Virus record (IMG/VR): IMGVR_UViG_3300020578_000060
Coordinates: 1 to 64,000 of that record
DNA length: 64,000 nt
Source: a virus
Strand: one strand, 5' to 3'
Notes under the pieces: generated by a model
The model's database searches: none
Seen by the model: only the letters and a program-made list of their open reading frames with translations
Told to the model about the DNA's origin: nothing
Position numbers and translations under genes: made by a program
Part shown: piece after piece, positions 2,226 to 63,282 of the stretch
Layout: every line of letters begins with the position of its first letter
How positions within the stretch are numbered: the stretch's first letter is position 1

Positions 2226-2233
2226 ATATTTAT
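2226..2233 (+). promoter_or_regulatory. Candidate late promoter octamer ATATTTAT
   Basis: The octamer ends 12 bases before the ATG at 2246. A second copy lies at 2207-2214. It is one of at least 18 such sites in the window; see findings. Confidence 0.5.
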
Positions 2234-2245
2234 TTAAAAAATCTT

Positions 2246-3043
2246 ATGGATATTAAAAAAATTACCGAACAAGAAGTCAATGACTTAATTCAAAAAGAAA
2301 AAATTGACTTATCTTCTTTTGAAATTAGGAGCACTTTAAACCCTAAAATTTTTGATGGTGATCAACATATGTATGAAGAAATACGTAGAAGATTACTTAT
2401 GATTGCCGATGACTTTTTTGAAACCTTAAAAGTAGAATGGGTAGACATACAAGATATAATTTTAACTGGTAGTTTATCAAATTATAATTGGTCTAAATTT
2501 TCAGATGTAGATTTACACATTCTATTAGATTTTGAGGATGTGGATGATAACATAGAATTAGTTAAAGAATACTTTACATCTAAGAAAAATTTATGGAATG
2601 AAAATCATGATATCACCATTAAAGGTTATGATGTAGAATTATATGTTCAAGAAACCAAAGAACCACATGTTTCTAGTGGAGTTTATTCTGTATTATGGGA
2701 TGGTTGGGTAGTAAAACCAGATGCAACTAAAAAAGAAATCGATTCCAAAAAAGTAGAACAAAAAGTAAATTCAATAGTAGACACAATAGAAGAAATTTAT
2801 TTTATGTATAAATCAGGAGAATATGATAAAACTATTAGAATGGTAAAAAATCTGAAAGATAAAATTAAAAAAATGAGACAGACAGGTTTAGATAGAGAAG
2901 GTGAGTATTCTTTTGAAAATATCGCATTTAAAGTTTTACGTAGAACAATGTACTTAGATAAATTAAGTGAGATAGAAACTAAGGCATATGATAAGTCTTT
3001 AACTTTAGATGAGTCTTTGTTGAATAATAAATTTAAATTATAA
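2246..3043 (+). CDS. Pol-beta-type nucleotidyltransferase fold protein
   Basis: The 265-residue protein carries the superfamily signature GSLSNYNWSKFSDVDLHI (about residues 75-92): a glycine-serine turn followed by two Asp in SDVD. A later acidic strand, YDVELYV (about residues 129-135), could supply the third carboxylate. The C-terminal half is helical and charged. Such enzymes transfer a nucleotide from NTP to a protein, RNA or small molecule; the target here is unknown. The gene heads the block of virion-type genes and has its own late-type promoter octamer, so the product may be a virion or late protein. The fold call is firm; the activity is unproven. Confidence 0.75.
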   Translation: MDIKKITEQEVNDLIQKEKIDLSSFEIRSTLNPKIFDGDQHMYEEIRRRLLMIADDFFETLKVEWVDIQDIILTGSLSNYNWSKFSDVDLHILLDFEDVDDNIELVKEYFTSKKNLWNENHDITIKGYDVELYVQETKEPHVSSGVYSVLWDGWVVKPDATKKEIDSKKVEQKVNSIVDTIEEIYFMYKSGEYDKTIRMVKNLKDKIKKMRQTGLDREGEYSFENIAFKVLRRTMYLDKLSEIETKAYDKSLTLDESLLNNKFKL

Positions 3044-3062
3044 TTTTTTTACTAAAAACGTA

Positions 3063-3070
3063 ATATTTAT
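3063..3070 (+). promoter_or_regulatory. Candidate late promoter octamer ATATTTAT
   Basis: The octamer ends 14 bases before the ATG at 3085, in an AT-only stretch between two genes. Confidence 0.5.
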
Positions 3071-3084
3071 TTATAAATAATAAT

Positions 3085-6754: not shown

Positions 6755-6766
6755 AATAAATATATT

Positions 6767-8246: not shown

Positions 8247-8254
8247 ATATTTAT
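8247..8254 (+). promoter_or_regulatory. Candidate late promoter octamer ATATTTAT
   Basis: The octamer ends only 6 bases before the ATG at 8261, between the terminator and the next gene. This spacing would give a nearly leaderless transcript. Confidence 0.5.
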
Positions 8255-10161: not shown

Positions 10162-10169
10162 ATATTTAT
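10162..10169 (+). promoter_or_regulatory. Candidate late promoter octamer ATATTTAT
   Basis: The octamer ends 12 bases before the terminase start at 10182. Confidence 0.5.
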
Positions 10170-10181: not shown

Positions 10182-11972
10182 ATGGAAAGAGCGGAACAAT
10201 TAAAAGTATATGCTCGTAGTTTAGGTGACCCAATTTACGCAATAGAAACTTTTTTAAAAACATTCGATTTGACGCAAAGTGGTAATGTACCATTTAAATT
10301 ATTTTACAAACAAAAAGAAATAATTAAATCGTATGAGAAGTATAATCGTAATTTAGTTACTAAACCTCGACAGGCAGGTGTATCTACTACTACTGCCGCA
10401 TATATTACAGTTAAGACTGCATTTGGTGATCCTGATAACCCACATAAAGTATTGATATTAGCCAATAAACAAACATTAGCGCAAGAATTCCTTAAAAAAG
10501 TTAAAGACTTTTTAGACCAAATACCTTATTGGGTTTGGGGGTTAGATGAAAGTGAAGATTATTTAGAAATTAACTCAAAAGGGCATATAAAATTAAAATC
10601 AAATGGTTGTGAAATTAGAGCACTTGCAACTTCTAAAGATGCGTTAAGGGGTTTTACCCCTACATTTTTAGTTATGGATGAGGCAGCGTTTATCGATAAC
10701 GGTTCAGAAGTTTTTGGCGCTGCTTTAGCTTCATTAGGTACAGGTGGTAAAATATCACTTATATCAACACCTAACGGTATGGATCCACTTTATTATAAAA
10801 CATATGATGGTGCTAAGAAAAAGGACAATAACTTCAACATTGTTGAGATGAAGTGGTATCAAGATGTTAGATATAATAGAAATCTATATTGGAAAAGAGG
10901 TGAAGATGAAATTATTAAATGTAATACGTTGGATAGAACTAAATTAAGGTGGGAATATATGGATAAAATATATGAAACTGATGAATCTACTATAGAGTAT
11001 TACGAAGTAATGATTAAAGAGGGTTGGAAACCTTTATCCCCTTGGTATGAAGAAATGGCGGCAGATATGGGTGACTCAAAAAAAATCGCGCAAGAACTTG
11101 ATGTTTCATTTATTGGTTCAGCGGGTAATGTAATGGATAATGAATATATTTCTTATCACGAAGAAAATTATGTTAAGGATCCAGAATTTGCTGCGGAAGT
11201 AGAAAAATCTATGTGGATATGGAAAAAACCTGAAGTAGGGCACAAATACATAATGGGTGTCGATGTTAGTAGAGGTGATGGTAAAGATAGTTCCACAATA
11301 GTAATTTTAGATTTTGAAAATTTAGAACAGGTTGCAGAATTTCAGTTTAAATTGCCTCCCGATATGTTAGCAGAGATAGTTTATAAATATGGTAATATGT
11401 ATAACGCATATACTATCATAGATATTACTGGTGGTATGGGAGTGCCAACAGTTTTAAAACTAATGGAAATGGATTATAAGTATTTACATTATGATGATCC
11501 TAAAAGTAGAAAACTTAGTGAGAAATACTCTAAAACAAAATTTAAAGAGGGAGATAAAATTCCTGGATTTAATGTGGGTAACACGCGTCTACATATGGTT
11601 TCTGAATTAGAGGAACATATTAGAGAAAATAAAACCATAATAAGATCACAAAGAATGATATCTGAATTGAGGACTTTTGTTTATAAAAATGGTAGACCCG
11701 ATCATATGGAGGGATATCACGATGATATAATTATGGCATTTGCTATGTGTATTTTTGTGGTCCAAACATCTTTTAAAAAGTTAGAACAGGTTGAGAAACA
11801 AACAAAGGCTATGTTAGAAAGTTGGGTTAATGTATCGAATAATAATCCGACAAAACCACTAACTAATACTAATTATGTAAATCCATTTTATAGTAATACC
11901 CCAACATACCATCCAAAACAAAATAATGATACTAACGATAACGGTGAATATAACTGGTTATTCGGATTATAA
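10182..11972 (+). CDS. Terminase large subunit (T4 gp17-like)
   Basis: This 596-residue DNA packaging motor cuts concatemeric DNA and pumps it into the prohead through the portal. The ATPase domain has the Walker A-like loop KPRQAGVSTT (residues 61-70) and Walker B FLVMDEAAF (Asp166, Glu167). The RNase H-type nuclease domain has GVDVSRGDGKDSST (Asp near 361) and the late acidic motif YHDDIIMAFA (about 515-524). Length and order fit gp17. It is followed by the portal gene, as in T4-like phages. A small-subunit gene was not identified. Confidence 0.95.
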   Translation: MERAEQLKVYARSLGDPIYAIETFLKTFDLTQSGNVPFKLFYKQKEIIKSYEKYNRNLVTKPRQAGVSTTTAAYITVKTAFGDPDNPHKVLILANKQTLAQEFLKKVKDFLDQIPYWVWGLDESEDYLEINSKGHIKLKSNGCEIRALATSKDALRGFTPTFLVMDEAAFIDNGSEVFGAALASLGTGGKISLISTPNGMDPLYYKTYDGAKKKDNNFNIVEMKWYQDVRYNRNLYWKRGEDEIIKCNTLDRTKLRWEYMDKIYETDESTIEYYEVMIKEGWKPLSPWYEEMAADMGDSKKIAQELDVSFIGSAGNVMDNEYISYHEENYVKDPEFAAEVEKSMWIWKKPEVGHKYIMGVDVSRGDGKDSSTIVILDFENLEQVAEFQFKLPPDMLAEIVYKYGNMYNAYTIIDITGGMGVPTVLKLMEMDYKYLHYDDPKSRKLSEKYSKTKFKEGDKIPGFNVGNTRLHMVSELEEHIRENKTIIRSQRMISELRTFVYKNGRPDHMEGYHDDIIMAFAMCIFVVQTSFKKLEQVEKQTKAMLESWVNVSNNNPTKPLTNTNYVNPFYSNTPTYHPKQNNDTNDNGEYNWLFGL

Positions 11973-11991: not shown

Positions 11992-11999
11992 ATATTTAT
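11992..11999 (+). promoter_or_regulatory. Candidate late promoter octamer ATATTTAT
   Basis: The octamer ends 26 bases before the portal start at 12026 and is preceded by AG (AGATATTTATT). Confidence 0.5.
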
Positions 12000-12025: not shown

Positions 12026-13924
12026 ATGGCAAGAAAAACAATATTCCAACAGTTAAGTGATTTATTTGGACCAGAAATTAAAAAACAAGAAAATAAGTCT
12101 AGATATTCTATTAACGATAAAGAACTATTAAAAACTAAATCAAAAGAGGAGTATGAGGTAGAGAAATTAAAAAGGCAACAAGATGCTTATCTATCTAATA
12201 TGTGGCAGAAAGTTGATAATGAGATATACCAACACTCTGTTTATTATGAAACAACTAGATTGGCATCATATGCTGATTTTGAGGGTATGGAGTTTTTCCC
12301 AGAAATATCGGCAGCTTTAGATATTATGATGGAAGAATCAACTACTTTAAATTCAGAAAATAAAATGATTAGTATTTTTTCTGAAAGTAAAAGAGTTAGA
12401 AGAATTTTAGAAGACTTATTTTTTAATAGATTAGATATTCATACATCGTTACCGATGTGGACAAGAAATACATGTAAATATGGGGATAATTTTTTATTTT
12501 TAAATATAGATAGTGAAGATGGTATTTTAGGGGTTAAACAATTACCTAATATAGAAATTGCTAGAAAAGAAAACGAAGGTTTTGGTGAAAATTCTATGAA
12601 CGCAGAAACCGATAAATATAATCCAGTAAAATTTGTATGGGGTCAAAGAGATATCGAATTTAATGCTTGGCAAGTTGCCCATTTTAGATTATTAGGTGAT
12701 GACAGAAGATTACCTTATGGGACTTCTATGTTAGAAAAGGCTAGAAGAATATGGAAACAATTATTATTGTCAGAAGATGCAATGTTAATATATAGAGTAA
12801 CTAGGGCACCTGAAAGAAGAATATTTAAAATCTATGTTGGTAATATTGATGAGCAGGATGTTCCTGCGTATGTTAATAAAATTGCTAACAATTTTAAAAG
12901 AAGTGCGGTTATTGATCAAAAAACTGGACAGATAGACAGTAGATATAATCAAATGGCTCAAGATCAGGATTACTTTATACCAGTTAGAGATCCAAATGCA
13001 CCTAGCCCAATAGATACTTTAGCGGGTGCAACTAATTTATCTGAAATTGCAGATATACAATATTTACAAAAAAAATTATTTACCGCACTTAGAGTCCCTA
13101 AACCTTTTTTAGGTTTTGAGGAAGTTAATGGTGATGGTAAAAATTTGGCACTACAAGATATTAGATTTGCTAGAACAATTAATAGGATACAACAATCAAT
13201 GTTACAAGAATTAAATAAAATTGCGATAATACATTTATATATTTTAGGTTTAGAGGATGAATTAGAAAATTTTTCTTTAACATTGAATAATCCATCTACA
13301 CAAGCCGAAATGTTAAAAATAGAACAAACACAGTTAAAAGTAACTTTATATAAAGATTGTGTTGTAGATGCGGGTAATGGATTTGGTGCAATGTCTATGA
13401 CTAGAGCTAAAAAAGAAATATTAGGTATGTCAGAAGAAGAAATTAGGAATGATTTAGAACAACAAAGATTAGAAAAGGCAGCTGCAGCAGAAATGGAACA
13501 AACTGCTGAAGTTATTAAAAAGACAGGTTTATTCGACAGAGTGGATAGACTTTATGGTGATTTTGATGCATTAGTATCTGGTGCAGGAGAAGCTGAGGCA
13601 GGTGCTGGTGGAGATACAGGTGGAGATGTGGGTGGAGATGTGGGTGCAGGTGCAGAACCAGCAGCGGAACCAGCAGCGGAACCAGCAGGTGCATCACCAA
13701 CGGAAGAGTCGATTAATAAAAAAGATAATTTATTATTAGAGGAAAAAAGAAAACTTTATACTGAAAAAGTTAAAAAATATCAAGGAATCTATCTTAAAAG
13801 ATTGTCTGAAAGTTTAGAAAAAAATGAAAATATCTATAATTTAGAGGATGTTGAGAAGAGTGCAAATAAACTTAATTCTAAAATTAATGAGATTACAAAT
13901 CAAATTAACGATATGATTAATTAA
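12026..13924 (+). CDS. Portal vertex protein (T4 gp20-like)
   Basis: This 632-residue protein forms the dodecameric portal ring through which DNA enters and leaves. The family look is clear in FPEISAALDIMMEES, YGTSMLEKARRIWKQL and APERRIFKIYVGN (about residues 90-285), with a conserved region near LRVPKPFLGFEE. The C-terminus carries a low-complexity Gly/Ala/Glu/Pro stretch (about 530-557), encoded by short tandem DNA repeats. Its final 60 residues are helical and lysine-rich. It lies between the terminase and the protease/scaffold/capsid genes. Confidence 0.93.
   Translation: MARKTIFQQLSDLFGPEIKKQENKSRYSINDKELLKTKSKEEYEVEKLKRQQDAYLSNMWQKVDNEIYQHSVYYETTRLASYADFEGMEFFPEISAALDIMMEESTTLNSENKMISIFSESKRVRRILEDLFFNRLDIHTSLPMWTRNTCKYGDNFLFLNIDSEDGILGVKQLPNIEIARKENEGFGENSMNAETDKYNPVKFVWGQRDIEFNAWQVAHFRLLGDDRRLPYGTSMLEKARRIWKQLLLSEDAMLIYRVTRAPERRIFKIYVGNIDEQDVPAYVNKIANNFKRSAVIDQKTGQIDSRYNQMAQDQDYFIPVRDPNAPSPIDTLAGATNLSEIADIQYLQKKLFTALRVPKPFLGFEEVNGDGKNLALQDIRFARTINRIQQSMLQELNKIAIIHLYILGLEDELENFSLTLNNPSTQAEMLKIEQTQLKVTLYKDCVVDAGNGFGAMSMTRAKKEILGMSEEEIRNDLEQQRLEKAAAAEMEQTAEVIKKTGLFDRVDRLYGDFDALVSGAGEAEAGAGGDTGGDVGGDVGAGAEPAAEPAAEPAGASPTEESINKKDNLLLEEKRKLYTEKVKKYQGIYLKRLSESLEKNENIYNLEDVEKSANKLNSKINEITNQINDMIN
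13595..13693. repeat. Short tandem repeats in the portal gene (GGT/GCA type and GCAGCGGAACCA)
   Basis: Repeats of GGTGGAGATGTG-like and GCAGCGGAACCA units encode Gly/Asp and Ala/Glu/Pro runs. This is slippage-prone DNA that encodes a flexible linker rather than part of the portal core. Confidence 0.6.
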
Positions 13925-13942: not shown

Positions 13943-13950
13943 ATATTTAT
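13943..13950 (+). promoter_or_regulatory. Candidate late promoter octamer ATATTTAT
   Basis: The octamer ends 14 bases before the ATG at 13965. Confidence 0.5.
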
Positions 13951-15296: not shown

Positions 15297-15304
15297 ATAT
15301 TTAT
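15297..15304 (+). promoter_or_regulatory. Candidate late promoter octamer ATATTTAT
   Basis: The octamer ends 20 bases before the endonuclease start at 15325. It may also serve the protease gene, whose start lies inside the endonuclease gene. Confidence 0.5.
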
Positions 15305-15324: not shown

Positions 15325-16017
15325 ATGGAAATATTGGGTGTTAGTAATATAACTTATTTATATACATTAAATGATCCTACTACGGGTGAGGTTAGGTATG
15401 TAGGTAAATCAGATACACCATATAAAAGGTTTACACAACACCTATCAAAATCAAAAAAAAACAACACATATAAAAATAACTGGATATCATCATTAATAAA
15501 TGAAGGCAAAAAACCTATTTTACAAATAATAGATGTTGTAGAAACTTCACAATGGGGTTTTTGGGAAAGTTATTGGATATCATTATTTAAAACGTGGGGG
15601 TTTAAATTAACCAACCTAACAAATGGTGGTGACGGGGGTAATTTCGGTACAGAAGTTAATAAAAAAATATCAGAAAAATTAAAAGGAAGGGTTTATAGTG
15701 AAGAAACTATTAAACGAATGAGGTTAGGTGCACAAAAACGCAGATTAACAAAAGAAGGTCGTAAACGACTGTCTAAACATAGAATGGGTGAAAAAAATTC
15801 TATGTACGGTAAAAAACAATCAAAACATTGTATTGAATTAAAATACAAACCCATCATACAAATGGATGGAGATAATAATATAATAAAATCTTGGGTTAGT
15901 ATGAAATCTGTCACAGACGAACTAGGTATAAATAGGAATGGTTTAAGAATGGTTTGTAATGGTGATAGAAAAAGCGCAGGAGGATTTAAATGGAAATGGA
16001 AAAATGAACAAGTTTGA
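15325..16017 (+). CDS. GIY-YIG homing endonuclease (I-TevI/Seg-like)
   Basis: The 230-residue protein has an N-terminal GIY-YIG nuclease domain in the form YLYTL ... VRYVGKSDTPYKRFTQHL (residues 9-40), with Arg32 after the second half-motif and Glu75 (WESYWISLF) as candidate catalytic residues. A NUMOD3-like DNA-binding segment (YSEETIKRMRLGAQ), a GxxNSMYGKK repeat and a C-terminal NUMOD1-like helix-turn-helix (IIKSWVSMKSVTDELGINR) follow. Such enzymes cut allelic or neighbouring sites lacking the gene and so spread. It is free-standing, inserted just before the prohead protease, and its last 14 bases overlap the protease start. Confidence 0.9.
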   Translation: MEILGVSNITYLYTLNDPTTGEVRYVGKSDTPYKRFTQHLSKSKKNNTYKNNWISSLINEGKKPILQIIDVVETSQWGFWESYWISLFKTWGFKLTNLTNGGDGGNFGTEVNKKISEKLKGRVYSEETIKRMRLGAQKRRLTKEGRKRLSKHRMGEKNSMYGKKQSKHCIELKYKPIIQMDGDNNIIKSWVSMKSVTDELGINRNGLRMVCNGDRKSAGGFKWKWKNEQV

Positions 16018-16732: not shown

Positions 16733-16740
16733 ATATTTAT
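16733..16740 (+). promoter_or_regulatory. Candidate late promoter octamer ATATTTAT
   Basis: The octamer lies 61 bases before the scaffold start, which gives the longest leader of the set. The leader contains the 13-base dyad CGTATAATATACG (16748-16760). Confidence 0.45.
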
Positions 16741-20067: not shown

Positions 20068-20075
20068 ATATTTAT
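20068..20075 (+). promoter_or_regulatory. Candidate late promoter octamer ATATTTAT
   Basis: The octamer ends 16 bases before the ATG at 20092. A TATATTTG element (20080-20087) follows but has no partner TTTG at the proper distance. Confidence 0.45.
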
Positions 20076-20091
20076 TATTATATTTGTGTTT

Positions 20092-22349: not shown

Positions 22350-22357
22350 ATAAATAT
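22350..22357 (-). promoter_or_regulatory. Candidate late promoter octamer ATATTTAT (minus strand)
   Basis: The octamer ends 12 bases before the start at 22337 and reads AGATATTTATT in the sense direction, the same form as before the portal gene. Confidence 0.5.
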
Positions 22358-26417: not shown

Positions 26418-26425
26418 ATAAATAT
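26418..26425 (-). promoter_or_regulatory. Candidate late promoter octamer ATATTTAT (minus strand)
   Basis: The octamer ends 15 bases before the start at 26402 and reads AGATATTTATA in the sense direction. It would drive the 26402-to-22359 tail block. Confidence 0.5.
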
Positions 26426-30419: not shown

Positions 30420-30420
30420 T

Positions 30421-41974: not shown

Positions 41975-42000
41975 AAAATTTTTATATAAGGATAGTGATT

Positions 42001-43314: not shown

Positions 43315-43346
43315 TTTGGCAGTTTAAAATCTTTTATATATATTTG
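43315..43346 (+). promoter_or_regulatory. Bacteroidota-type vegetative promoter for the lipoprotein gene
   Basis: TTTG at 43315-43318, 20 bases, then TATATTTG at 43339-43346 matches the host-type consensus TTTG-N19/20-TAnnTTTG. It gives a short leader before the ATG at 43367. It points to transcription by the unmodified host polymerase, that is, early in infection or constitutively. Confidence 0.75.
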
Positions 43347-45692: not shown

Positions 45693-45700
45693 ATAAATAT
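45693..45700 (-). promoter_or_regulatory. Candidate late promoter octamer ATATTTAT (minus strand)
   Basis: The octamer ends 17 bases before the start at 45675. Confidence 0.45.
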
Positions 45701-47636: not shown

Positions 47637-48185
47637 TTAAATTTTAGATTCGTATATTATTAATTTTTGCATTCTTAAAATCTCTTCGTAAACAGGTTTA
47701 CCTCTCCATACTTGTCCACTAATATCTTTACTTAGTTTTGGTATTTTCATTTTTAAAGAATGTTTATTAATTTTAGTATTATCTTTTTCATGTTGTTTGA
47801 TAAATTGGTTTGATAAACCTGTTTCACTTTTTATTTTTTTAGGTCCTTTTAGCGCCAAAGTTTCTTTATTTAAAGTAGAATCAACCCAATTATGCATTGT
47901 TTTACCACCATTAAGTCTATATTCAATGTCTTTGTGATCACCATCATAATTATCAAACCAGTTTTTTATTCTTTTCATTTGTTTGTATTCTATTTTTTTA
48001 TTTTCTAGAATACCTTTTGCCCTTTTATAACCTTCAGTAGGTTTATTATTGTTAATATCTTCTTTTTTAAGTGTTTCATAAGTTTTTACTGCATTACTAA
48101 CCGCATTAATTACATAATTAGGGCAGTTATAATACTTACCATGTAATTTACTATTACCACCTTTATTTTTATTTCTCTTCGCCAT
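47637..48185 (-). CDS. Basic phage protein, unknown
   Basis: I chose the ATG at 48185 (MAKRNKNKGGNSKLHGKYY); a TTG at 48203 would only add six residues from the overlap with the upstream gene. The 182-residue product is very basic, with CPNYVINAVSNAVKTYETL and KRIKNWFDNYDGDHKDIEYR. It ends EEILRMQKLIIYESKI. The charge suggests DNA contact, perhaps inside the head. Confidence 0.55.
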   Translation of the reverse strand: MAKRNKNKGGNSKLHGKYYNCPNYVINAVSNAVKTYETLKKEDINNNKPTEGYKRAKGILENKKIEYKQMKRIKNWFDNYDGDHKDIEYRLNGGKTMHNWVDSTLNKETLALKGPKKIKSETGLSNQFIKQHEKDNTKINKHSLKMKIPKLSKDISGQVWRGKPVYEEILRMQKLIIYESKI

Positions 48186-48843
48186 ATTTAATTTTATCTC
48201 CAATAATTTCCCTATGTTCTTCTGATATACTATAAATATCTAAATTATCGACAAGATGGTTTAAAAGAATAGTTAGTTCGTCACCAACTATATTTTCTTT
48301 ATGTATTAAATCTAATAAACTATTTATTTTCCTTATTACTATTGGTTTTTCATGAATATCTTTTAATTCACTTATATCAGGAATAGTTATTCTATCCATC
48401 ATTACTTCAGTTTCTCTCATTTTTTTTACAAAATCTTTAGAATCGTCTTTTTTTTTTCTAATAATTTCGTCCACCAAAGATTTCATAGAATCTTCCTCTT
48501 CATTTATTTCATGTTCCATATATGTATTGTAATTTTTAGGTGGAGTAACATCTAATTTTTCAAAAAAATCATTAGTATCTATATCTAAAATTTCTTCTTC
48601 TTCATTAACAACATATGAATAATTTACCCCATAATAAGGTCCACCGTAAATAAAATATGCCTCAGGTCCTTGAGTTGAACTTCTTACGTAGTCGTCAGTA
48701 GTCTTTTTAGATTTGATGGTATTTCTACTTTGTTTATAATTATTAGTTCTACTAATTAATGCACCATTAGTTCCTATTAATTCATCTAATCTTTTTTCTG
48801 TTAAATAATTTTTTATTTCGGACTTTTTAAATCTTTTACCCAT
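48169..48843 (-). CDS. Virion-type helical protein, unknown
   Basis: The 224-residue protein starts MGKRFKKSEIKNYLTEKRL, with an LTE cleavage-like site near residue 16. It has an aromatic/Gly patch (YFIYGGPYYGVNYSYVV) and a long acidic and basic helical rest. It is first in the minus-strand set and is driven by a late-type octamer. The overlap with the next gene is 17 bases. Confidence 0.55.
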   Translation of the reverse strand: MGKRFKKSEIKNYLTEKRLDELIGTNGALISRTNNYKQSRNTIKSKKTTDDYVRSSTQGPEAYFIYGGPYYGVNYSYVVNEEEEILDIDTNDFFEKLDVTPPKNYNTYMEHEINEEEDSMKSLVDEIIRKKKDDSKDFVKKMRETEVMMDRITIPDISELKDIHEKPIVIRKINSLLDLIHKENIVGDELTILLNHLVDNLDIYSISEEHREIIGDKIKYGEEK

Positions 48844-48859: not shown

Positions 48860-48867
48860 ATAAATAT
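48860..48867 (-). promoter_or_regulatory. Candidate late promoter octamer ATATTTAT (minus strand)
   Basis: The octamer ends 16 bases before the start at 48843. It is back to back with the plus-strand site at 48881. Confidence 0.5.
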
Positions 48868-48880: not shown

Positions 48881-48888
48881 ATATTTAT
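48881..48888 (+). promoter_or_regulatory. Candidate late promoter octamer ATATTTAT
   Basis: The octamer ends 14 bases before the fibre gene start at 48903. Confidence 0.5.
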
Positions 48889-52719: not shown

Positions 52720-52727
52720 ATATTTAT
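52720..52727 (+). promoter_or_regulatory. Candidate late promoter octamer ATATTTAT
   Basis: The octamer ends 13 bases before the fibre gene at 52741. Confidence 0.5.
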
Positions 52728-54228: not shown

Positions 54229-54255
54229 TTAATTAAAAATAATTTATTATATTTG
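54225..54255 (+). promoter_or_regulatory. Bacteroidota-type promoter for the DNA polymerase gene
   Basis: TTG (54225-54227) and TATATTTG (54248-54255) are separated by 20 bases, close to the consensus. An AAGGA sequence lies about six bases before the ATG at 54280 and is one of the few Shine-Dalgarno-like sites in the window. Together they fit early expression by the host polymerase. Confidence 0.65.
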
Positions 54256-54279: not shown

Positions 54280-57200
54280 ATGCCTGCATCAGTAGAAGAC
54301 ATCAAAGAATATTTAGAGGGTTATGATGAACAAAAGTATATAGTGGGGGTTGAATCTTCTTACTATGAAAATAAAGTATATCTAATCATACACGATCCAG
54401 AAAAGGGTAAACGTATAGAAAAACATAAATTCACACCATTTTTATGGATGAAGAGTTTAGATATAAATAAGTTATACGGTGGAGATAGAAAAGAAATTAA
54501 GAATAAAATTAAGGAATATAAAATTAAATTCATACCGTTATCAATAGAAGACGAAAATGGGGAAACAGTTTCTCGTTTAGAAAATGGTTATAAATTTTTA
54601 GTTAGAACAAAAGGTTCTTATGGGGATTTATTAAATTTCTTTAATAAAGGTAATATGGATGTTTATGCCGATGAAAATAGAGGTAATTTTCTAACTATAA
54701 GTCCTACTGAACAATTTTTAATACAAACAGGTAAAAGATTATTTAAGGGTATGGACGAATATAATGATGTCCATAGACTTTCTTTTGACTTAGAGACAAC
54801 AGGTTTAGATCCTAAAGTTAGTAGAATTTTTCAAATAGGTATGAAAGATAATATTGATTTTCAACACGTTATTTCTATCGATGGTGATGACGAAGAAACT
54901 TTACGTAGAAGAGAATCTGAAGCTATTATAACCTTTTTTAAAGTAATTAATTATTTGAAACCCGCAATCATAGCTGGATATAACTCCGAAAACTTTGACT
55001 GGTATTTTATAACTGAAAGGTGTAAAATATTAGGTTTAGATATTACTAAAATTGCCAAAACATTAGGTAATGTATCATTTTATAGAAAAACTCAAACACT
55101 GAAAATGGGTCCAGAAATGGAAGATTATGAACAAACTCATATGTGGGGTTATAATATAATGGATGTGTATCACGCAGTAAGAAGGGCTCAGGCAATTAAT
55201 TCATCAATTAAAGAGGCAGGACTAAAGTATATTACAAAATATTCTAAGGTAGCTAAACCTAATCGAGTTTATATACAAGGAGATAAGATTAGTAAAATTT
55301 ATGAGGATAAAGAAAATGAATATTGGTTTGATGATAGTAGGGGTGAATGGGGGAAAATTAAAGATGATGAAATTCATGAAAATACTATTAAAGTTAAAGG
55401 TTCTTACATAGTAGAAAGATACTTAATCGATGACTTATGGGAAACAGAAAAAGTAGACAATATTTTTAATCAGGCAACTTTTTTATTATCTAAAGTGTTA
55501 CCAACATCATTTATGAGGGCATCGACTATGGGTACTGCAGCAACTTGGAAACTTCTTATGCTGGGTTGGTATTATAGAAGTGGCATTGCCATACCACATA
55601 CTATGCCGTCAAAAGGTTTCATAGGTGGATTATCTAGATTATTAGAAGTAGGTTTTAGTGAGAATGTAGTTAAGTTTGACTTTGCTTCTCTTTACCCATC
55701 AATACAATTAACTCATAATGTTTTTACTGATTGTGATGTAATGGGCGCAATGAGAGGTTTATTACAGTATAACTATGATTACCGTAATCTTTATAAGGAA
55801 TTGAAAAAGAAATACTCTTCAGAAGGTGATTCCGAAAAATCTGCGTATTATGATAAAAAACAATTACCCTTAAAAATTTTAAATAATGGTATGTTTGGAT
55901 CTATTTCAGCACCAAATGTTTATCCGTGGGGTGATTCAGATATGGGTGAAAAAATTACATGTACAGGTAGACAATATCTAAGACATATGATTAGATTCTT
56001 TTCACATAAAGGTTTTAAACCATTAGTAGGTGATTCGGTTACTTACGACACACCAATTTATATTAGATATAAATCAGATAACAATTACATAGATATCTTA
56101 CCTATATGTGATTTATTTAATGAAAGTTCTGAATTTTTAGATATTGAAAAATTAAGAGACTTTGAAGGGAAAGAGTTTGAGGTTTTAACTCGTAATGGAT
56201 GGAAAGAAATAAAATATGTATATCGTCACGAAACAAATAAAACTATTCATAGGATAAGTACTAAAGATAGACTAATAAATGTTACCGAGGATCATTCGTT
56301 ATTCCAAAACGGTGTTGAAGTGAAACCATCTTCATTAAAAAGAAGTGATAAAATTGATATCTATGATTTACCAGTAAATAATGATTTAATTACTGTTATA
56401 AATGAGGAAATGGCGTTTTTATATGGTTTTTTCTTAGGTGATGGGTCATCTATATGTTCGAGTAGAAAACAAAAATATATTTCACGTAAAACTGGTGTGA
56501 TAAAATATAATAAAGGTAAAAGAAGTGATTGGAAAATTTCTAATTCAAGAATAGAATTATTAGAAAAACTACAAAAAATTCTTAATAATGAATTTTCCGT
56601 AAAAGGGGTAATAAAGAACCATATTAAATCTTCAGGTGTATATAATTTGGTGGTTTATAATAGTAAATTTTCTAAAACTTTTTGTGACAACTTTTATACT
56701 TCATATAGAGAAAAGAAAATTCCTAAAATTATATTAAATTCTACAAAAGAAATTAAAATGGCATTTATTAATGGTGTTTTTTCTTCTGATGGTTACGGGG
56801 ATTCAATAGAAACATGTTCAGATATAGGTATGAAATCACAAGTTGCAATGTCAGGAATTTCATTAATTTTAAAAGAATTAGGTATTGATTATAAAATTAA
56901 AACCAGAAAAGATAGACAAAATTTTATAAATTTTAACCTAAAAAATAGTAATCGTAACAATTCATCATTTACCAATAAAACTAAAAAGAAAAGTGACGAA
57001 GTTTGGAAAAATGAAGTAATCGAAAATAAAGATAAAAATAAATATGTTTACGACATATCAACAGAAGATGGTACTTTTGTATGTGGTATAGGTGGAATTA
57101 TTGCACATAATACCGATGGATTTAACTTTTCTGTACCTAAAGATGTAGATAGATTTGTTTATACATCTAATGGTAATCACCATTTTAATGAATTAGGTAA

Positions 57201-58182
57201 AACATATAAAGGTATGTCTGCAGTAGTTGCAGAATATAATGATAAATATATGAAAGGTGTAATGGGATTAGATGTAGATGAGATATGTTCGTCAACCATT
57301 AATTTATCTAGAAAAAATTATGCAGATTTAATCGATGGTAAAGTTAAATTAGTCGGTAACTCTATTAAATCTAAAAAAATGCCAGTTTATATTTCAGAAT
57401 TCATAGATAAAGGAATTAAATTATTATTAGATGGAGATGGTTTAGGTTTTGTAAATGAATATTATGAAACAATAGAAATGATTTATAATCAAGAAATTCC
57501 ACTATCTAAAATTGCTAATAAGGCTAGAGTTAGAATTTCGTTAGACGCATATAAAAAGAAGATGAAAACTACTAATAAATCAGGTGGTTCTATGGCTAGA
57601 CAGGCACATATGGAATTAATTATGAAGGAGGGTTTGAATGTTAATTTAGGTGATACAATTTATTATGTCAATACAGGAACAAAAAAATCACACGGGGATG
57701 TTCAAACAAAGGCACATAGTAAATTTACAAAAAAGGAAACTGAATTATATTACATTAATAATGGTAAGTTACCTGATCCATCTAAAATAGAAATTACTGT
57801 AAATTGTAATTATATACCTAACGAATTAATAGAAAATGATCCTAATGCAACTGGCGAATACAATATAGATAGGTACTTAGATGCATTTAATAAAAGGGTT
57901 AAACCATTATTAGTTTGTTTTGATCCATCAGTGAGAGATGAAATTTTAATAACTTCCCCATTAGAAAGAAAATACTTTACCGCACAAGAATTAACATTAA
58001 CTTCTGGAAAACCATTCAATGATAGTGATCAGGATAAGTTAGAAGATTTATTAACTATTACTGATGAGGAATTAGAATTCTGGAATAGAATAGGTATCTC
58101 ACCTACTTATATGTTTGAGGATTACGGTATAGAAGATGAATTCTCATATGACGTAAAGACCCAAAGGCCGATAAGTCAATGA
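54280..58182 (+). CDS. Family B DNA polymerase (T4 gp43-like) with an intein
   Basis: The 1300-residue chain replicates the phage genome after splicing. The exonuclease motifs are FDLETTGLDP (ExoI, about residue 169) and IAGYNSENFDWYF (ExoII, about 230). Polymerase motif A is DFASLYPSIQLTHN (about 467-480). Motif B is KKQLPLKILNNGMFGSISAP (about 526-545). Motif C is split: VGD comes before the intein and TDGF after it, giving GDTDGF when joined. The mature length is about 941 residues, close to gp43 (898). It has its own host-type promoter and a convergent 3' overlap with the neck-like gene. Confidence 0.95.
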   Translation: MPASVEDIKEYLEGYDEQKYIVGVESSYYENKVYLIIHDPEKGKRIEKHKFTPFLWMKSLDINKLYGGDRKEIKNKIKEYKIKFIPLSIEDENGETVSRLENGYKFLVRTKGSYGDLLNFFNKGNMDVYADENRGNFLTISPTEQFLIQTGKRLFKGMDEYNDVHRLSFDLETTGLDPKVSRIFQIGMKDNIDFQHVISIDGDDEETLRRRESEAIITFFKVINYLKPAIIAGYNSENFDWYFITERCKILGLDITKIAKTLGNVSFYRKTQTLKMGPEMEDYEQTHMWGYNIMDVYHAVRRAQAINSSIKEAGLKYITKYSKVAKPNRVYIQGDKISKIYEDKENEYWFDDSRGEWGKIKDDEIHENTIKVKGSYIVERYLIDDLWETEKVDNIFNQATFLLSKVLPTSFMRASTMGTAATWKLLMLGWYYRSGIAIPHTMPSKGFIGGLSRLLEVGFSENVVKFDFASLYPSIQLTHNVFTDCDVMGAMRGLLQYNYDYRNLYKELKKKYSSEGDSEKSAYYDKKQLPLKILNNGMFGSISAPNVYPWGDSDMGEKITCTGRQYLRHMIRFFSHKGFKPLVGDSVTYDTPIYIRYKSDNNYIDILPICDLFNESSEFLDIEKLRDFEGKEFEVLTRNGWKEIKYVYRHETNKTIHRISTKDRLINVTEDHSLFQNGVEVKPSSLKRSDKIDIYDLPVNNDLITVINEEMAFLYGFFLGDGSSICSSRKQKYISRKTGVIKYNKGKRSDWKISNSRIELLEKLQKILNNEFSVKGVIKNHIKSSGVYNLVVYNSKFSKTFCDNFYTSYREKKIPKIILNSTKEIKMAFINGVFSSDGYGDSIETCSDIGMKSQVAMSGISLILKELGIDYKIKTRKDRQNFINFNLKNSNRNNSSFTNKTKKKSDEVWKNEVIENKDKNKYVYDISTEDGTFVCGIGGIIAHNTDGFNFSVPKDVDRFVYTSNGNHHFNELGKTYKGMSAVVAEYNDKYMKGVMGLDVDEICSSTINLSRKNYADLIDGKVKLVGNSIKSKKMPVYISEFIDKGIKLLLDGDGLGFVNEYYETIEMIYNQEIPLSKIANKARVRISLDAYKKKMKTTNKSGGSMARQAHMELIMKEGLNVNLGDTIYYVNTGTKKSHGDVQTKAHSKFTKKETELYYINNGKLPDPSKIEITVNCNYIPNELIENDPNATGEYNIDRYLDAFNKRVKPLLVCFDPSVRDEILITSPLERKYFTAQELTLTSGKPFNDSDQDKLEDLLTITDEELEFWNRIGISPTYMFEDYGIEDEFSYDVKTQRPISQ
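56035..57111 (+). mobile_element. Intein in DNA polymerase motif C
   Basis: The element is 359 residues long. It starts with Ser (SVTYDTPIYIRY, block A), has VTEDHSLFQNG (block B, TxxH), two LAGLIDADG-type motifs (FLYGFFLGDGSS and AFINGVFSSDGYGDS), and ends VYDISTEDGTF ... IIAHN with Thr as the first extein residue. All parts for splicing and homing are visible. The insertion splits the catalytic GD/TD, so the enzyme is inactive until spliced. Confidence 0.93.
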
Positions 58183-59286
58183 TTTATTAAGATTTTCTGC
58201 CTCTAACGCTTTATTCTCTAATTGTTTTACATTAGAAAGTTTTTCTAATCTTAAATCTAATTGTTCTAATAATTTTAATTGTTCTTCTTTACCTTCATTT
58301 AGAAGACTATCAAAATCCATAGTCAATTCGGCTTCAGGTACTTTTAATGCCCCACCAAACTTACCTCTTACTCTACCTAAAGCTTCTTTGAATAATGCAG
58401 TCAAATATCTCCTAACCCATATTCTTGTAGGTTCATTTAAATCAGAATACCTTATTTTAGATAGAGGTACATCATTAGGTAATTTAATTATGTCAGGATT
58501 TTCTTCTAAACATTTGTCTCTATCGTCTCCAGCATCATAATAGTGATACCAAACCTTAGTTCCTGCCAACCCTACTTGTCCGCCTACTAAACCACCACCA
58601 GCAAATGAAAGTCTACTACCTGGTATCGGCATAAGATGTAATAATCTAGTCCCATCTGGACCCGCAGTAACTTTGTAAGATAATTCACTCCTCAATAATT
58701 TAGATTTTAAACTAAAATCACTGGATCTAAGCAATACATCAAATGCGGGTGCAACATAGAATCCACCATTACCTAATCCACCACCTTGCCCCCAACCAGC
58801 AAAAGGGACTTGTCCGAATCCACCACCAAATCCATAATCACCAAATCCCGCAAATGAATAAAGTGCGTGATCAGTTGAGTTTGGGGTTAACCATAATATT
58901 TCATTAATTTCTCTTCCAGCTGGTATCTGATATACTTGTTGATTTTTTATTATTGTTACGTAATCTTTTTTAAGTTCCCAAGGACCTCTTTGTTGTAAAC
59001 CAACTTGCTTAGAATAGGCATAAGAAAAAGTGCTTTCAAAGTCTAAAGATCTAGTCGTTAATGCAAATGCAATATCAATTTTATCAGCATCTTTACCTAA
59101 TACAGATGACCATTGGTTTTCTATTAACCAATCTTGAACTCGTTGAGCATAATCCTCAATTGCAGTTTCCAATAGAGAATTCATTTGATCCCAATCCAAT
59201 TCAATTTTACGAATAGGTGCACCTAATCTATGTTTTATTTGTGTGAACAATTCGTTTTTTAAATTATCATTTAATGAATTTGGCAT
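58144..59286 (-). CDS. Neck/head-completion-type structural protein
   Basis: The start is the ATG at 59286 (MPNSLNDNLKNELF); a TTG two codons earlier is not needed. The 380-residue protein has HRLGAPIRKIELDWDQMNSL followed by an AIEDYAQRV helix, a pattern seen in phage connector or neck-type virion proteins. It also has a Gly-rich region (GFGGGFGQVPFAGWGQGGG, about 148-166). Its 3' end overlaps the DNA polymerase 3' end by 39 bases on the opposite strand. The role is inferred. Confidence 0.65.
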   Translation of the reverse strand: MPNSLNDNLKNELFTQIKHRLGAPIRKIELDWDQMNSLLETAIEDYAQRVQDWLIENQWSSVLGKDADKIDIAFALTTRSLDFESTFSYAYSKQVGLQQRGPWELKKDYVTIIKNQQVYQIPAGREINEILWLTPNSTDHALYSFAGFGDYGFGGGFGQVPFAGWGQGGGLGNGGFYVAPAFDVLLRSSDFSLKSKLLRSELSYKVTAGPDGTRLLHLMPIPGSRLSFAGGGLVGGQVGLAGTKVWYHYYDAGDDRDKCLEENPDIIKLPNDVPLSKIRYSDLNEPTRIWVRRYLTALFKEALGRVRGKFGGALKVPEAELTMDFDSLLNEGKEEQLKLLEQLDLRLEKLSNVKQLENKALEAENLNKSLTYRPLGLYVI

Positions 59287-59303
59287 ATTCAATATATTTA
59301 TTT

Positions 59304-59311
59304 ATAAATAT
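59304..59311 (-). promoter_or_regulatory. Candidate late promoter octamer ATATTTAT (minus strand)
   Basis: The octamer ends 17 bases before the start at 59286. It is three bases from the plus-strand copy at 59315, making ATAAATATCTAATATTTAT. Confidence 0.55.
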
Positions 59312-59314: not shown

Positions 59315-59322
59315 ATATTTAT
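59315..59322 (+). promoter_or_regulatory. Candidate late promoter octamer ATATTTAT
   Basis: The octamer ends 21 bases before the ATG at 59344. Confidence 0.5.
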
Positions 59323-59343: not shown

Positions 59344-59715
59344 ATGAAAGAAGAATTAATTTTAAAATTTGTTGGGATGCAACAACAATTTAGAATATTA
59401 CATTGGCAAACAAAATCATATGCAAAACATAATGCATATGGATCAATATATGAATCATTGGATAGTTTTATTGATGAGTTTATCGAAATTTACATGGGTA
59501 AATACGGTAGAGTATCTTTTAATAGTGGTGAAGGTAATATTATTTTAAAAAATACTGATTCATTAGATTTAAATTCCTTTATTAAGGAAAATATTTCTTG
59601 GTTAAAAAGTTTAAATCAAAAACTTAATGAAGAAAATGATAGTGATTTATTAAATATCAGAGATGAAGTAATGGGTTCATTAAATAAATTAAGATATTTA
59701 TTAACACTAAAATAA
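59344..59715 (+). CDS. Ferritin-like small phage protein (DUF5856-like)
   Basis: The 123-residue protein starts KFVGMQQQFRILHWQTKSYA, then a helix with HNAYGSIYESLDSFIDEFIE, the pattern of the ferritin-like (Dps-like) family of phage proteins. Two further helices follow. Carboxylates for a di-iron site are partly present (HW, E, D/E), so iron binding is possible but not shown. Its stop overlaps the next start (TAATG). Confidence 0.75.
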   Translation: MKEELILKFVGMQQQFRILHWQTKSYAKHNAYGSIYESLDSFIDEFIEIYMGKYGRVSFNSGEGNIILKNTDSLDLNSFIKENISWLKSLNQKLNEENDSDLLNIRDEVMGSLNKLRYLLTLK

Positions 59716-60089: not shown

Positions 60090-60355
60090 TCTTTAAGTAA
60101 TTGATTCTTTATTAGACTCACTGCCTCATCAATAGTGTTAAAAGATTTTTCAGGTACAAACGCAGTTCTATCCATTAAAATTGCTGGCAGATATTCATTG
60201 TTAACTTTTTTAGAAAAATTATTATATAATTCCTCATGTTCGTCAATATCAATATCAATATAATCTATATTATTTTCATTTAATTTACTTTTTAATTTTT
60301 CACAATGAGGGCATCCTTTCATTGAAAATACTTTTACTCTTACATCAGTTTCCAT
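60086..60355 (-). CDS. Glutaredoxin
   Basis: The 89-residue protein is a full glutaredoxin: strand VKVFSMKGCPHCEKLKSKL with active site CPHC (residues 15-18), then a cis-Pro region EYLPAILMD (about 54-62) and a C-terminal helix. It reduces disulfides, for example in ribonucleotide reductase, as T4 NrdC does. It overlaps the helicase gene by eleven bases, and its 3' end meets the convergent gene. Confidence 0.92.
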   Translation of the reverse strand: METDVRVKVFSMKGCPHCEKLKSKLNENNIDYIDIDIDEHEELYNNFSKKVNNEYLPAILMDRTAFVPEKSFNTIDEAVSLIKNQLLKD

Positions 60356-63239
60356 TTTCTATTTTATTTATGAATTCATTTATTATTTCATCTTCACCCA
60401 TTATAGTTCCGATAACTTTCTTTTTATTATTTAATATATTCCATATAATTGTATCTATGGTATCATCTATTAACATATAATAAATATTAACAGTTTCTTT
60501 TTGTCCTATCCTATACGCCCTATCTTCGGCTTGTTCATGATTACCTGGTACCCAATCCAAAGAATTCATAATAACAATTTCCGCTTTAGTTAAAGTTAAA
60601 CCAACACCTGCCGCCTTTATTTGCCCAATAAAAACCATACAACTATCATCTTTTTGAAATCTATCGACAGAATGTTGTTTTTGTTTATCAGTCATACCAC
60701 CTCTAACACAAACCGCCTTCTTACCAAAATATCTAACAAATTCATCCATTTCATCATTAAAGTTACAAAATATGATTACTTTTTTATTTAACTCTAACGC
60801 CTCTTCAGTTTTCTCAATAGTATATGGAACGGTTTCCATTGCAATAAAAGTTCTTAATAATGTGGTTTCCACTAAATCTTTTGCAGGATTACCTTTTTTA
60901 CCAGCTAATTTACGTTTATTTAAGTAATCATTCCATACATTTTCGTAACCACCAACATTCTGTAATTCTAAATAAACTGGAGTAATTAATTTTTCAGGTA
61001 AATCTAAAACCTCATCTTTTTTACGTCTAAGAATAGTTCTTTTAGTTTTAGTAGATAATTCATCTAAATTAGATGATCCTTTGGTAACCCAAACAAATTT
61101 ACCACCTTTCTTAAATCTAGATCCTGCACAATATGTTTTAGCATAATGAACCCAATTATTTGCAACTGGAGAATCAATTATAGATAGTAAGTTATAGTAA
61201 TCCATCGGTCTATTAGCGATAGGTGTACCAGTTAATAACCATACCCTAGAATTTTTAAACGTTTTTGATACATCTTTTATAATTTTACCCCTTATACTTT
61301 TATGATTTTTAATGTAATGCGCTTCATCTAAAATAATTAAATCAGGATTAAATTCTAATAATTCTTTACGAATTTCCCAATCTTCATAGTCTTTACCCCT
61401 CTCTTTTACCGTATGAAAATTTTTCAGTATATCATAATTGATGATTGTAAATCTAGAAGGATTCCAATAAGTCCCATTTATGATAGACACATCATCACAA
61501 AAGTTTTCAACCTCACGTTTCCAATTTATTTTAAGTGATGATGGGCAAATAATTAAAACTCTTTCAGAATCACTTTCTAATGCGGCAACTATAGACTGAT
61601 AGGTATTGTGAGTAACAATACCATGATCAGTTACATATAGGTGATCTTTAGCATCAACTTGAATACATACCGTTTCACCTTGTTTTTCTAATTGTATATT
61701 TGTAATATATCTACCTATCTTATATTTTTCAGAAGTTTTATATTCTTCAGACTTTCTTTTTAGTCTGAATGGATTCATCCCTTTTGGTAATTTAATGTTA
61801 AGTCTGTAATTTAATCTACCTTTTAATTTTTTTCCTTTATAAGTATAAGTAGGTATTCTACTTTTTTTTCTAACAATACCCCCAAGACTATGAACAATTT
61901 CTGCAACATCGTCTGCTAGTTTTTCGGATGATGTAGAAAATTCAGTACCAGTAAAATTACCTTTTTTTGATTTCATACAATGTCCATCCGTATCCATAAG
62001 ACCTTGTAATAAAGACAGTCTATCATCAATTGACGAATATTTATAGATGTCAGGTATGAATTTATTATATGATCTAGTTTGATTAATTTTAAGTTCTTTT
62101 AATGATTCTGATAAAAATATAGAACCACATCTTAAATTTTTTTGTGGTTTATTTTCTTTTATTGTTTGGTTTGAAAATAATTCATCAAAATCATCTTTAT
62201 GGACATCTACTTTAACTGATACATCTTTTATATGTCCATCACCCAAACAGATACCCAATAAATATGGATTAATCGGTAAAGTTTTGTCGACAGTAAATTC
62301 TATGGGTTTTACAATAGGTATTTGCCATTTATTCTGCCCATTTTTAGTTTTATAAAACGTATTGAATTTATAAGGTTTTTTTTCGTTACACCCTATACCA
62401 TTTTTTATTAAAACTAAATCTTCATCCAACATTTGTTCAACACTTAATGTATGGTATTTATTTTCTCTATTTTTAGAATTTTCTCCACTATTATTACTAC
62501 TTACAGTCCATAGATGATCTTTAGAAACTAATATAGAATAACCATCATTAAATGTTATTCTATATAAATCTTTCACCCCTTGTGGATATACTGCCTCAAC
62601 AATTGTAGGTTTACCATCAGAACCAATAACATAATCACCAGGTATTACATCCCCAATCCTTTTTTTACCATATGGAGTAAATACTTCAGAATCAACACTT
62701 TGACATTTACCTAATCCCATATCATCCGCCAAAATACATTTCTTATTGTTTATAAGAAATTTAATACCATCTTCCTGATGTTTAAATGCCTTCCATCCTC
62801 TCTTATCTAAATCAACATATTTTTCAAAATCAATATCAATATTAAGTTCTTCATAATGAATGTCATCTAAAAGTTGTGTTTTAGGAATCCACAATATTTT
62901 AAAATCTTCTTGTTTTTTATGTAATTTACAAAGAACGTGAATTGCTTTTTCGGATTCCGCCAATAATGTATCTATAAAAATTTTTTTAGGTGAAATTTTT
63001 AATTTATGTTCTTCTTTTAATTGTTCAGAGAAATACTCAGTCAATTCAATGACTTTATTTATTTCTTTTGGTTCAAAATAATAATAAGTTTTAATATAAT
63101 TAGATTGACTATTAGTTAAAAAATAATTCTTTTCAGTATCCATTTTTTTCTTCATAAATCTAATATAAGGGTTTTTACCCTCATAAGAAGACAATAAAGT
63201 ATCAGTATCTAAATTGTTTATGTCTTTAATATCTAACAT
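60345..63239 (-). CDS. SNF2/UvsW-like superfamily 2 helicase with an intein
   Basis: I chose the ATG at 63239 (MLDIKDINNL); a TTG six codons earlier overlaps a TATCTTTG promoter element. The 964-residue chain has Walker A ADDMGLGK, cut by the intein before Thr, then DEAH (LIILDEAHYIKN), LLTGTPIAN (motif III), and motif VI EQAEDRAYRIGQKETVNIYY. The mature length is about 597 residues. RIGQ and the motif forms indicate the SNF2 (SMARCAL1-like) family, likely acting at replication forks or in recombination like UvsW. Confidence 0.93.
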   Translation of the reverse strand: MLDIKDINNLDTDTLLSSYEGKNPYIRFMKKKMDTEKNYFLTNSQSNYIKTYYYFEPKEINKVIELTEYFSEQLKEEHKLKISPKKIFIDTLLAESEKAIHVLCKLHKKQEDFKILWIPKTQLLDDIHYEELNIDIDFEKYVDLDKRGWKAFKHQEDGIKFLINNKKCILADDMGLGKCQSVDSEVFTPYGKKRIGDVIPGDYVIGSDGKPTIVEAVYPQGVKDLYRITFNDGYSILVSKDHLWTVSSNNSGENSKNRENKYHTLSVEQMLDEDLVLIKNGIGCNEKKPYKFNTFYKTKNGQNKWQIPIVKPIEFTVDKTLPINPYLLGICLGDGHIKDVSVKVDVHKDDFDELFSNQTIKENKPQKNLRCGSIFLSESLKELKINQTRSYNKFIPDIYKYSSIDDRLSLLQGLMDTDGHCMKSKKGNFTGTEFSTSSEKLADDVAEIVHSLGGIVRKKSRIPTYTYKGKKLKGRLNYRLNIKLPKGMNPFRLKRKSEEYKTSEKYKIGRYITNIQLEKQGETVCIQVDAKDHLYVTDHGIVTHNTYQSIVAALESDSERVLIICPSSLKINWKREVENFCDDVSIINGTYWNPSRFTIINYDILKNFHTVKERGKDYEDWEIRKELLEFNPDLIILDEAHYIKNHKSIRGKIIKDVSKTFKNSRVWLLTGTPIANRPMDYYNLLSIIDSPVANNWVHYAKTYCAGSRFKKGGKFVWVTKGSSNLDELSTKTKRTILRRKKDEVLDLPEKLITPVYLELQNVGGYENVWNDYLNKRKLAGKKGNPAKDLVETTLLRTFIAMETVPYTIEKTEEALELNKKVIIFCNFNDEMDEFVRYFGKKAVCVRGGMTDKQKQHSVDRFQKDDSCMVFIGQIKAAGVGLTLTKAEIVIMNSLDWVPGNHEQAEDRAYRIGQKETVNIYYMLIDDTIDTIIWNILNNKKKVIGTIMGEDEIINEFINKIENGN
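61605..62705 (-). mobile_element. Intein in the helicase Walker A motif
   Basis: The element is 367 residues long. It starts with Cys (CQSVDSEVFTPYGKKRIGDV), has VSKDHLWTV as block B, two LAGLIDADG-type motifs (YLLGICLGDGHIKD and LLQGLMDTDGHCMKS), and ends DHGIVTHN with Thr following. It sits between Lys and Thr of GLGK/T, so ATP binding needs splicing. Confidence 0.93.
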
Positions 63240-63244
63240 ATTTT

Positions 63245-63252
63245 CAAAGATA
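63245..63252 (-). promoter_or_regulatory. TATCTTTG element before the helicase gene
   Basis: TATCTTTG fits the Bacteroidota -7 form TAnnTTTG. It ends five bases before the ATG at 63239, so transcription from it would start at about the start codon. No TTTG partner is obvious 20 bases upstream, which lowers confidence. Confidence 0.4.
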
Positions 63253-63274
63253 CACAATTTTTTCTTAAAAATAA

Positions 63275-63282
63275 ATATTTAT
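63275..63282 (+). promoter_or_regulatory. Candidate late promoter octamer ATATTTAT
   Basis: The octamer ends 20 bases before the ATG at 63303. It is part of the palindrome ATAAATATTTAT, so it can also be read toward the helicase gene. Confidence 0.5.

Follow-up and report, generated by a model that had tools for sequence, protein, structure and literature searches.

A Variant T4-Type Box as Candidate Late Promoter in a Far-T4-like Phage and Its Relatives

Introduction

The late promoters of phage T4 carry a box, TATAAATA, numbered −13 to −6, of which A-12, A-9 and A-8 flip into pockets of the late sigma factor gp55 (PMC7892883). Late-box consensus sequences have been derived in silico for other gp55-encoding phages, including Aeh1, cyanophage S-PM2 and KVP40, and that of Aeh1 departs from T4 (PMC2988020). 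The Far-T4 phages were described as being without the core genes of T4 transcription regulation, and their transcription was left open (PMC4360716). These phages are common in lakes and seas. Here, we analyzed the octamer ATATTTAT in 64,000 of the 68,047 bases of IMG/VR virus record IMGVR_UViG_3300020578_000060 (hereafter, the window; 71% AT). We propose that it is the T4-type element, with a TT center, of the late promoters of this phage, which host RNA polymerase would read by way of a gp55-like sigma factor, and put the probability of this reading at about 0.77.

The window encodes a T4-type terminase, portal, head protease and major head protein, as well as a family-B DNA polymerase. The closest named phages for both the portal and the gp55-like protein are Flavobacterium phage immuto and Microcystis phage Mel-JY01, and Rhodothermus phage RM378 is a further relative by portal. 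Considering these relatives, the scarcity of Shine-Dalgarno-like sites (5 of 72 window genes) and the presence of Bacteroidota-type TATATTTG promoters in this genome and its relatives, we take the phage to be Far-T4-like, probably with a Bacteroidota host.

An altered late promoter would fill a gap in Far-T4 transcription, as a variant of the known T4 type, and since it is legible from sequence, late genes could be assigned in many uncultivated genomes. We found no description of it in the freely readable literature, to which the RM378 genome paper and other subscription articles do not belong.

Placement of the Octamer in the Window

An unbiased k-mer search of the 60 bases before gene starts ranked ATATTTAT first among 8-mers, with 19 of 68 genes against 1.16 expected (p = 5e-17). 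The total on both strands of the window was only mildly raised (42 against 29.9 expected, a number reached by 2 of 100 shuffles), and the signal therefore lies in the placement. There were 23 copies in 3.2 kb of intergenic DNA and 19 in 60.8 kb of coding DNA, corresponding to densities of 7.2/kb and 0.31/kb, a 23-fold difference (p = 2e-19). Almost all of the intergenic copies (21/23) were in the sense orientation, no more than 61 nt upstream of a start on the same strand, while the 19 intragenic copies included 10 antisense and seven sense copies away from any start. A sense octamer was present in 20 of 66 upstream regions of 45 nt, compared to a mean of 1.8 and a maximum of 8 in 1000 dinucleotide shuffles. 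The upstream regions also held eight antisense octamers, most of which belong to divergently oriented promoters (48860/48881, 59304/59294/59315 and 63271/63275).

The sequence-only reading had listed the octamer as a late promoter that always reads in the sense direction and mostly precedes structural genes. Every listed site is present, and the gaps to the starts are 6–26 nt (61 nt for 16802), although the list omitted the copies at 2207, 48232(−), 59694 and 63271(−) and the second copy before 59344. The statement on orientation applies to the 21 intergenic copies above, but not to 6756–6763(−) and 45860–45867(−), which have no same-strand gene start close behind; the latter lies 184 nt upstream of the 45675 start. 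The bias in gene class was borne out, the octamer marking packaging and structural genes. Position, orientation, density, motif search, gene class and conservation (see below) thus agree in supporting a late promoter.

Conservation in Relatives and Controls

ATATTTAT was also the top 8-mer in five large related genomes, G001 to G005, where it preceded 45, 55, 22, 52 and 45 genes, respectively, compared to 2.0, 2.75, 1.2, 2.5 and 2.5 expected. The same method ranked TATAAATA first in T4, used as a positive control. As negative controls we used crAss001 and phi14:2, AT-rich (66–71%) Bacteroidota phages of another kind, in which ATATTTAT was not enriched (0 and 1 gene). Together with the shuffles of the upstream regions, these two phages rule out AT-richness alone as the source of the octamers.

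Conservation was seen gene by gene. Window genes with an octamer kept it in 15/17, 12/14, 10/10, 8/10 and 7/8 cases in G001–G005, whereas octamer-free window genes had one in 3/36, 2/26, 3/20, 1/24 and 2/14 cases (p = 1.5e-8 to 1.5e-3). All 32 distinct relatives had the octamer upstream of the portal gene. In immuto, a more distant phage, [AC]TATTTATA precedes the terminase, portal, sheath, tube, hub and tape measure genes, and TATTTATA was found upstream of 8/21 structural and 0/35 metabolic genes (p = 1.4e-4). The core is thus TATTTAT, with a first A that drifts. Mel-JY01, which is recorded on a cyanobacterium, has both a gp55 relative and the ATATTTAT box, and the motif is therefore separable from the host sigma. 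In this phage, Shine-Dalgarno-like sites are frequent, and the octamer mostly lies ≈33–37 nt before the ATG, leaving room for a ribosome site.

Structure of the Putative Late Box

The core of the box is TATTTATW, preceded by A or C. The exact word occurred 117 times in the 12–18 nt spacing window, compared to 2.1 expected, and single-base variants were close to background, except for ATATTTGT (22 against 0.8), which corresponds to the host-type class described below. Logos of 233 distinct octamer sites, taken together or by gap class, showed no conserved −35 element. They did show a T-rich block 13–17 nt upstream of the octamer, and A's 6–7 nt past its end (91% at two positions in the main gap class). 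Control octamers elsewhere were without the downstream A's, and the T-block was largely missing. The block is not a by-product of terminators, as it persists at 33 sites in coding DNA (63–72% T at two positions), and it is a general feature, since it is shared by the host-type promoters.

The gap between octamer and ATG falls into two groups, of 4–5 and 12–20 nt, with a dip at 9–11 nt. The host-type promoters of the same genomes have the same two groups. Both would fit one start site, the position of which we infer from the spacing. Several short gaps are identical across related genomes, such as G001 13833, 21588 and 43948 and their G002 counterparts. In G001–G005, about one fifth of the octamer sites and about one third of the TATATTTG sites lie 3–8 nt (mostly 4–5 nt) before the ATG. 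In sigma-A numbering, the T of TAHHTTTG is at −12 (PMC6847099), and a gap of 4 nt after TATATTTG therefore places the ATG at +1. By analogy, the short-gap late genes are probably leaderless, and the short gaps predict many leaderless mRNAs; in Flavobacterium psychrophilum, 5.5% of mRNAs are reported to be leaderless (PMC9723704).

Comparison with T4 and Other Promoters

The box resembles that of T4 in being an 8-bp AT element ≈10 bp before the start and upstream of structural genes, with no conserved −35 element and a phage sigma of the gp55 type. TATTTATA differs from TATAAATA at positions 4 and 5 only. In the T4 register, the TA at −13/−12, the A at −8 and the T at −7 are retained, while the central AA at −10/−9 becomes TT. 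The consensus TATAAATA itself is not followed here, and sense counts of it are far lower than those of TATTTATW; the consensus is no strict requirement of a T4-type system, given that the Aeh1 box deviates as well. TATTTATA is also the exact reverse complement of TATAAATA, because TAT..ATA is self-complementary. We rejected an inverted T4 promoter, since the box reads in the sense direction and the reverse-complement match is due to these self-complementary ends; the changed specificity suggested by the sequence-only reading stands as a two-base variant. Further differences from T4 are the very short leaders that we predict, the scarcity of Shine-Dalgarno sites, which are almost missing, and ≈60 additional residues in the gp55-like protein. 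Aeh1 is altered at −13/−12 (a/gC for TA), whereas the change here is at −10/−9 and lineage-wide.

Octamer-free genes were enriched for a different box, TATATTTG(T) (20–21 genes in G002, compared to 1.8 expected), which carries TTGG ≈20 nt upstream and defines a second class, TTGG-N19-TATATTTGT. This class was found before octamer-free genes in the relatives G002, G004 and G005, and in the window it precedes the DNA polymerase gene and 43367. The “early” and “late” labels were assigned by gene content. The early and late boxes, ATATTTGT and ATATTTAT, have ATATTT and a T in common and are one base apart (G to A), an unusually simple candidate for a switch. The sigma-A promoter of Bacteroidota is TTTG/TAHHTTTG (PMC6847099); the late box shares with it the ATATTT, a similar distance to the start and a T-rich block near −28.

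A related box, TTATTTAA(A), lies close before 36 genes in RM378 and looks like the main promoter of that phage. It resembles the late octamer in its TATTTA core, the short distance to the ATG and the large number of genes, and differs in having A rather than T at −7, a GC-richer genome and a sigma that falls into a different PHROG family.

The gp55-like Protein

The sequence-only reading had placed a gp55-like factor at 26440–27174, and database matches bear this out, with moderate homology. The 244-residue product has a match to phrog_234, a family of late sigmas (E = 1e-4), as do 11 of its 24 homologs (best E = 8.8e-6), and another to Pfam Sigma70_r2 (E = 3e-4). Profile–profile alignment in hhalign with the gp55s of T4 and eight T4-like phages gave 85% and E = 6e-6. 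Among the window proteins scanned, it was the only sigma-family match, and 9 of the 11 records searched had one such gene each. In the window, no octamer precedes the start of this gene or of any gene in the operon that ends with it (27–43 kb), and the relatives have hardly any there, which fits a factor whose synthesis comes ahead of that of the late genes.

Both the hhalign alignment and that with T4 gp55 from the PDB pair Y97 of T4 (which contacts A-12), F86 and R57 with Y99, F88 and R60, so that these residues are kept, while N13, H95 and T99, which form the A-9/A-8 pockets, are paired with G19, Y97 and G101. The altered box thus appears to coincide with altered gp55 pockets, and the two box bases and the three T4 residues touching that part of the box would present a natural case of joint promoter and sigma change. 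The H95 change was rejected as the lone cause of specificity, since the gp55 of cyanophage S-RIM8 has F there; the change at T99, which is replaced by G, Q or S in this lineage, is more lineage-specific. We do not hold any one residue responsible.

The Far-T4 gp55 homologs have a conserved C-terminal extension that is missing from T4 gp55 (motif TKDIRxxMRRFK; 26440–26685(−), the C-terminal third). It appears HTH-like by eye, yet Pfam finds nothing in it, and we do not claim a sigma-4-like HTH. Comparison with region 4 by hhalign, using a set in which two of the three sequences were typed from general knowledge, gave 11.3, within the shuffled null (up to 15.6). The C-termini end in acidic and hydrophobic residues, which is suggestive only with respect to clamp-binding motifs.

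Proposed Mechanism and Alternatives

In the mechanism that we propose, the phage gp55-like factor would replace the host sigma on host RNA polymerase, and ATATTTAT would act as a −10-like element where T4 has its late box TATAAATA, with TT at the center instead of AA. The DNA would open at the octamer without a −35 element, and transcription would start 5–7 nt past it, yielding mRNAs with very short leaders or none for the packaging, structural and late helicase genes. Transcription of the other genes, including DNA polymerase, would depend on the host sigma-A box TTGG-N19-TATATTTGT, and TATATTTAG genes would be early. It is very likely that the octamer is a promoter; its activity in vivo, its timing and the start site are what we infer from the sequence, and the gp55-like protein is presumably its reader. 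Most likely, this is an altered T4-type late promoter that extends throughout a large, mostly uncultivated T4-related group, with a divergent gp55 as the reader.

Several observations weigh against this proposal. The Sigma70_r2 match is under the Pfam cut-off (21 vs. 24 bits), and the match to T4 gp55 in the PDB (7d7c_F) is collinear but weak (E = 0.15). G005 has the motif but no gp55 match, although this record may be a fragment. Neither the gp45 clamp (PF02916) nor a bacterial-type clamp (PF00712) was detected in the window record or its relatives, which may be fragments, and clamps diverge; no gp33 family match was found among the proteins scanned. Some late genes, such as that of the major head protein (18253), have no octamer of their own and would need read-through. 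Finally, RM378 has its related box and a sigma (128329–128928) that belongs to phrog_1740, and no gp55 homolog was detected in it. We therefore do not count RM378 as a gp55 case, and the core word alone is no proof of gp55.

RM378 also lends itself to the suggestion that the late promoter has another reader, such as a phage RNA polymerase, an ECF-like factor or some other phage sigma, and that the gp55-like protein, with its moderate homology, does something else. We consider this quite unlikely, given that the gp55-like gene is single in most records, is the sole sigma-family match among the scanned window proteins and sits in an octamer-free operon, fitting a factor needed before the late genes. 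Somewhat less improbable, but still unlikely, is a reading that needs no phage sigma, in which the octamer would be a variant form of the sigma-A −7 box (TAnnTTTG) of the host and would be recognized by the host sigma, perhaps on a modified RNA polymerase. The single base between ATATTTAT and ATATTTGT, the T-rich DNA ≈28 bp upstream of the start and the two gap classes common to both types would fit such an arrangement, as would the AT-rich motifs reported at −18/−28 in Flavobacterium sigma-A promoters (PMC6847099). On the other hand, all octamer sites have A at −5, where sigma-A requires an invariant G, and the leading T is dispensable. The −33 TTG/TTTG is missing at the octamers but present at the TATATTTG sites of the same genomes (TTG in 98/95/61%), the two boxes seldom occur on the same gene, and Mel-JY01 has the same octamer on its cyanobacterial record. 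That the octamer is not a promoter at all, but a signal for translation, part of an AT-rich leader or an artefact of intergenic AT-richness, is highly improbable. The genome is indeed AT-rich and the octamer is close to start codons, but neither the shuffled upstream regions nor the AT-rich control phages reproduce the enrichment, and the gap to the ATG ranges from 4 to >40 nt, with the T-block and the A's in register with the octamer rather than the ATG.

Beyond the gp55-read late promoter lies a wider, possible but doubtful scenario, in which Far-T4 late transcription split from that of T4 by a joint change of the box center and the gp55 pocket. Late promoters would then be set apart from early ones by the G-to-A change plus the loss of the −33 element, a considerable fraction of the mRNAs would be leaderless, and the C-terminal domain of the gp55-like protein would replace gp33 or sigma-4 as a fused late sigma, possibly with no T4-type clamp. 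According to a review of T4, a fused late sigma had not been found.

Predicted Promoter Sites and Neighboring Genes

The sites in the window are listed in Table 1.

Table 1. Octamer copies, host-type boxes and the gp55-like gene in the window; promoter assignments are predictions.
Feature	Position	Strand	Context
Upstream copy of ATATTTAT	2207..2214	+	31 nt before 2246 gene
Putative late promoter octamer	2226..2233	+	12 nt before 2246; kept in G001, G005
Putative late promoter octamer	3063..3070	+	14 nt before 3085; kept in G001, G004, G005, G009
Octamer, short-gap, possibly leaderless class	8247..8254	+	6 nt before ATG 8261; kept in G001, G005
Putative late promoter octamer	10162..10169	+	before terminase large subunit (10182–11972)
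Putative late promoter octamer	11992..11999	+	before portal protein (12026–13924)
Putative late promoter octamer	13943..13950	+	14 nt before 13965; kept in G001, G002, G004, G005, G009, G010
Putative late promoter octamer	15297..15304	+	20 nt before homing endonuclease gene 15325, then head maturation protease 15959–16702
Octamer	16733..16740	+	61 nt before 16802; major head protein 18253–20007 in the cluster
Putative late promoter octamer	20068..20075	+	16 nt before ATG 20092
Host-type promoter class site	20079–20086	+	one of the second-class boxes in the window
Putative late promoter octamer	22350..22357	−	12 nt before 22337 start; kept in G001–G005
Putative late promoter octamer	26418..26425	−	15 nt before small gene directly downstream of gp55-like gene
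gp55-like sigma factor gene, 244 aa	26440..27174	−	own start without octamer
Host-type (early-class) box TATATTTG	43339..43346	+	upstream TTTGG; before 43367
Putative late promoter octamer	45693..45700	−	17 nt before 45675 start
Octamer within 48169–48843	48232..48239	−	28 nt before 48203 start; kept in G001, G002, G003
Putative late promoter octamer	48860..48867	−	16 nt before 48843 start; divergent pair with 48881
Putative late promoter octamer	48881..48888	+	before appendage-type protein 48903–50990
Putative late promoter octamer	52720..52727	+	13 nt before 52741
Host-type (early-class) box TATATTTG	54248..54255	+	before DNA polymerase 54280
Second octamer copy	59294..59301	+	42 nt before 59344
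Putative late promoter octamer	59304..59311	−	before neck/head-tail adaptor gene (58144–59286)
Putative late promoter octamer	59315..59322	+	21 nt before 59344
Octamer within 59344–59715	59694..59701	+	13 nt before 59715; relatives without it
Putative late promoter octamer	63271..63278	−	before SNF2-type helicase gene (60345–63257)
Putative late promoter octamer	63275..63282	+	20 nt before 63303; overlaps minus-strand copy

The homing endonuclease gene (15325–16017) separates a late octamer from the head maturation protease gene and is missing in the relatives compared, in which the octamer lies directly before the protease orthologs. The insert seems to have taken over the protease promoter.

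The SNF2-type helicase, which has a LAGLIDADG insertion, is preceded by a late octamer and in this resembles uvsW of T4, a late gene. The DNA polymerase B (54280–58182) contains intein-splicing and LAGLIDADG domains. The octamer-free minus-strand operon at 27183–43257 encodes glycosyltransferases, a MocA-type oxidoreductase, dUTPase and PhoH, and several of its genes are missing in the relatives compared. In immuto, many small early-region genes, mainly at record positions 62–76 kb, have a long, near-identical promoter, TATATTTAGGTATCAATAATTAAAA, a third type that matches neither the late box nor the −7 box of the host.

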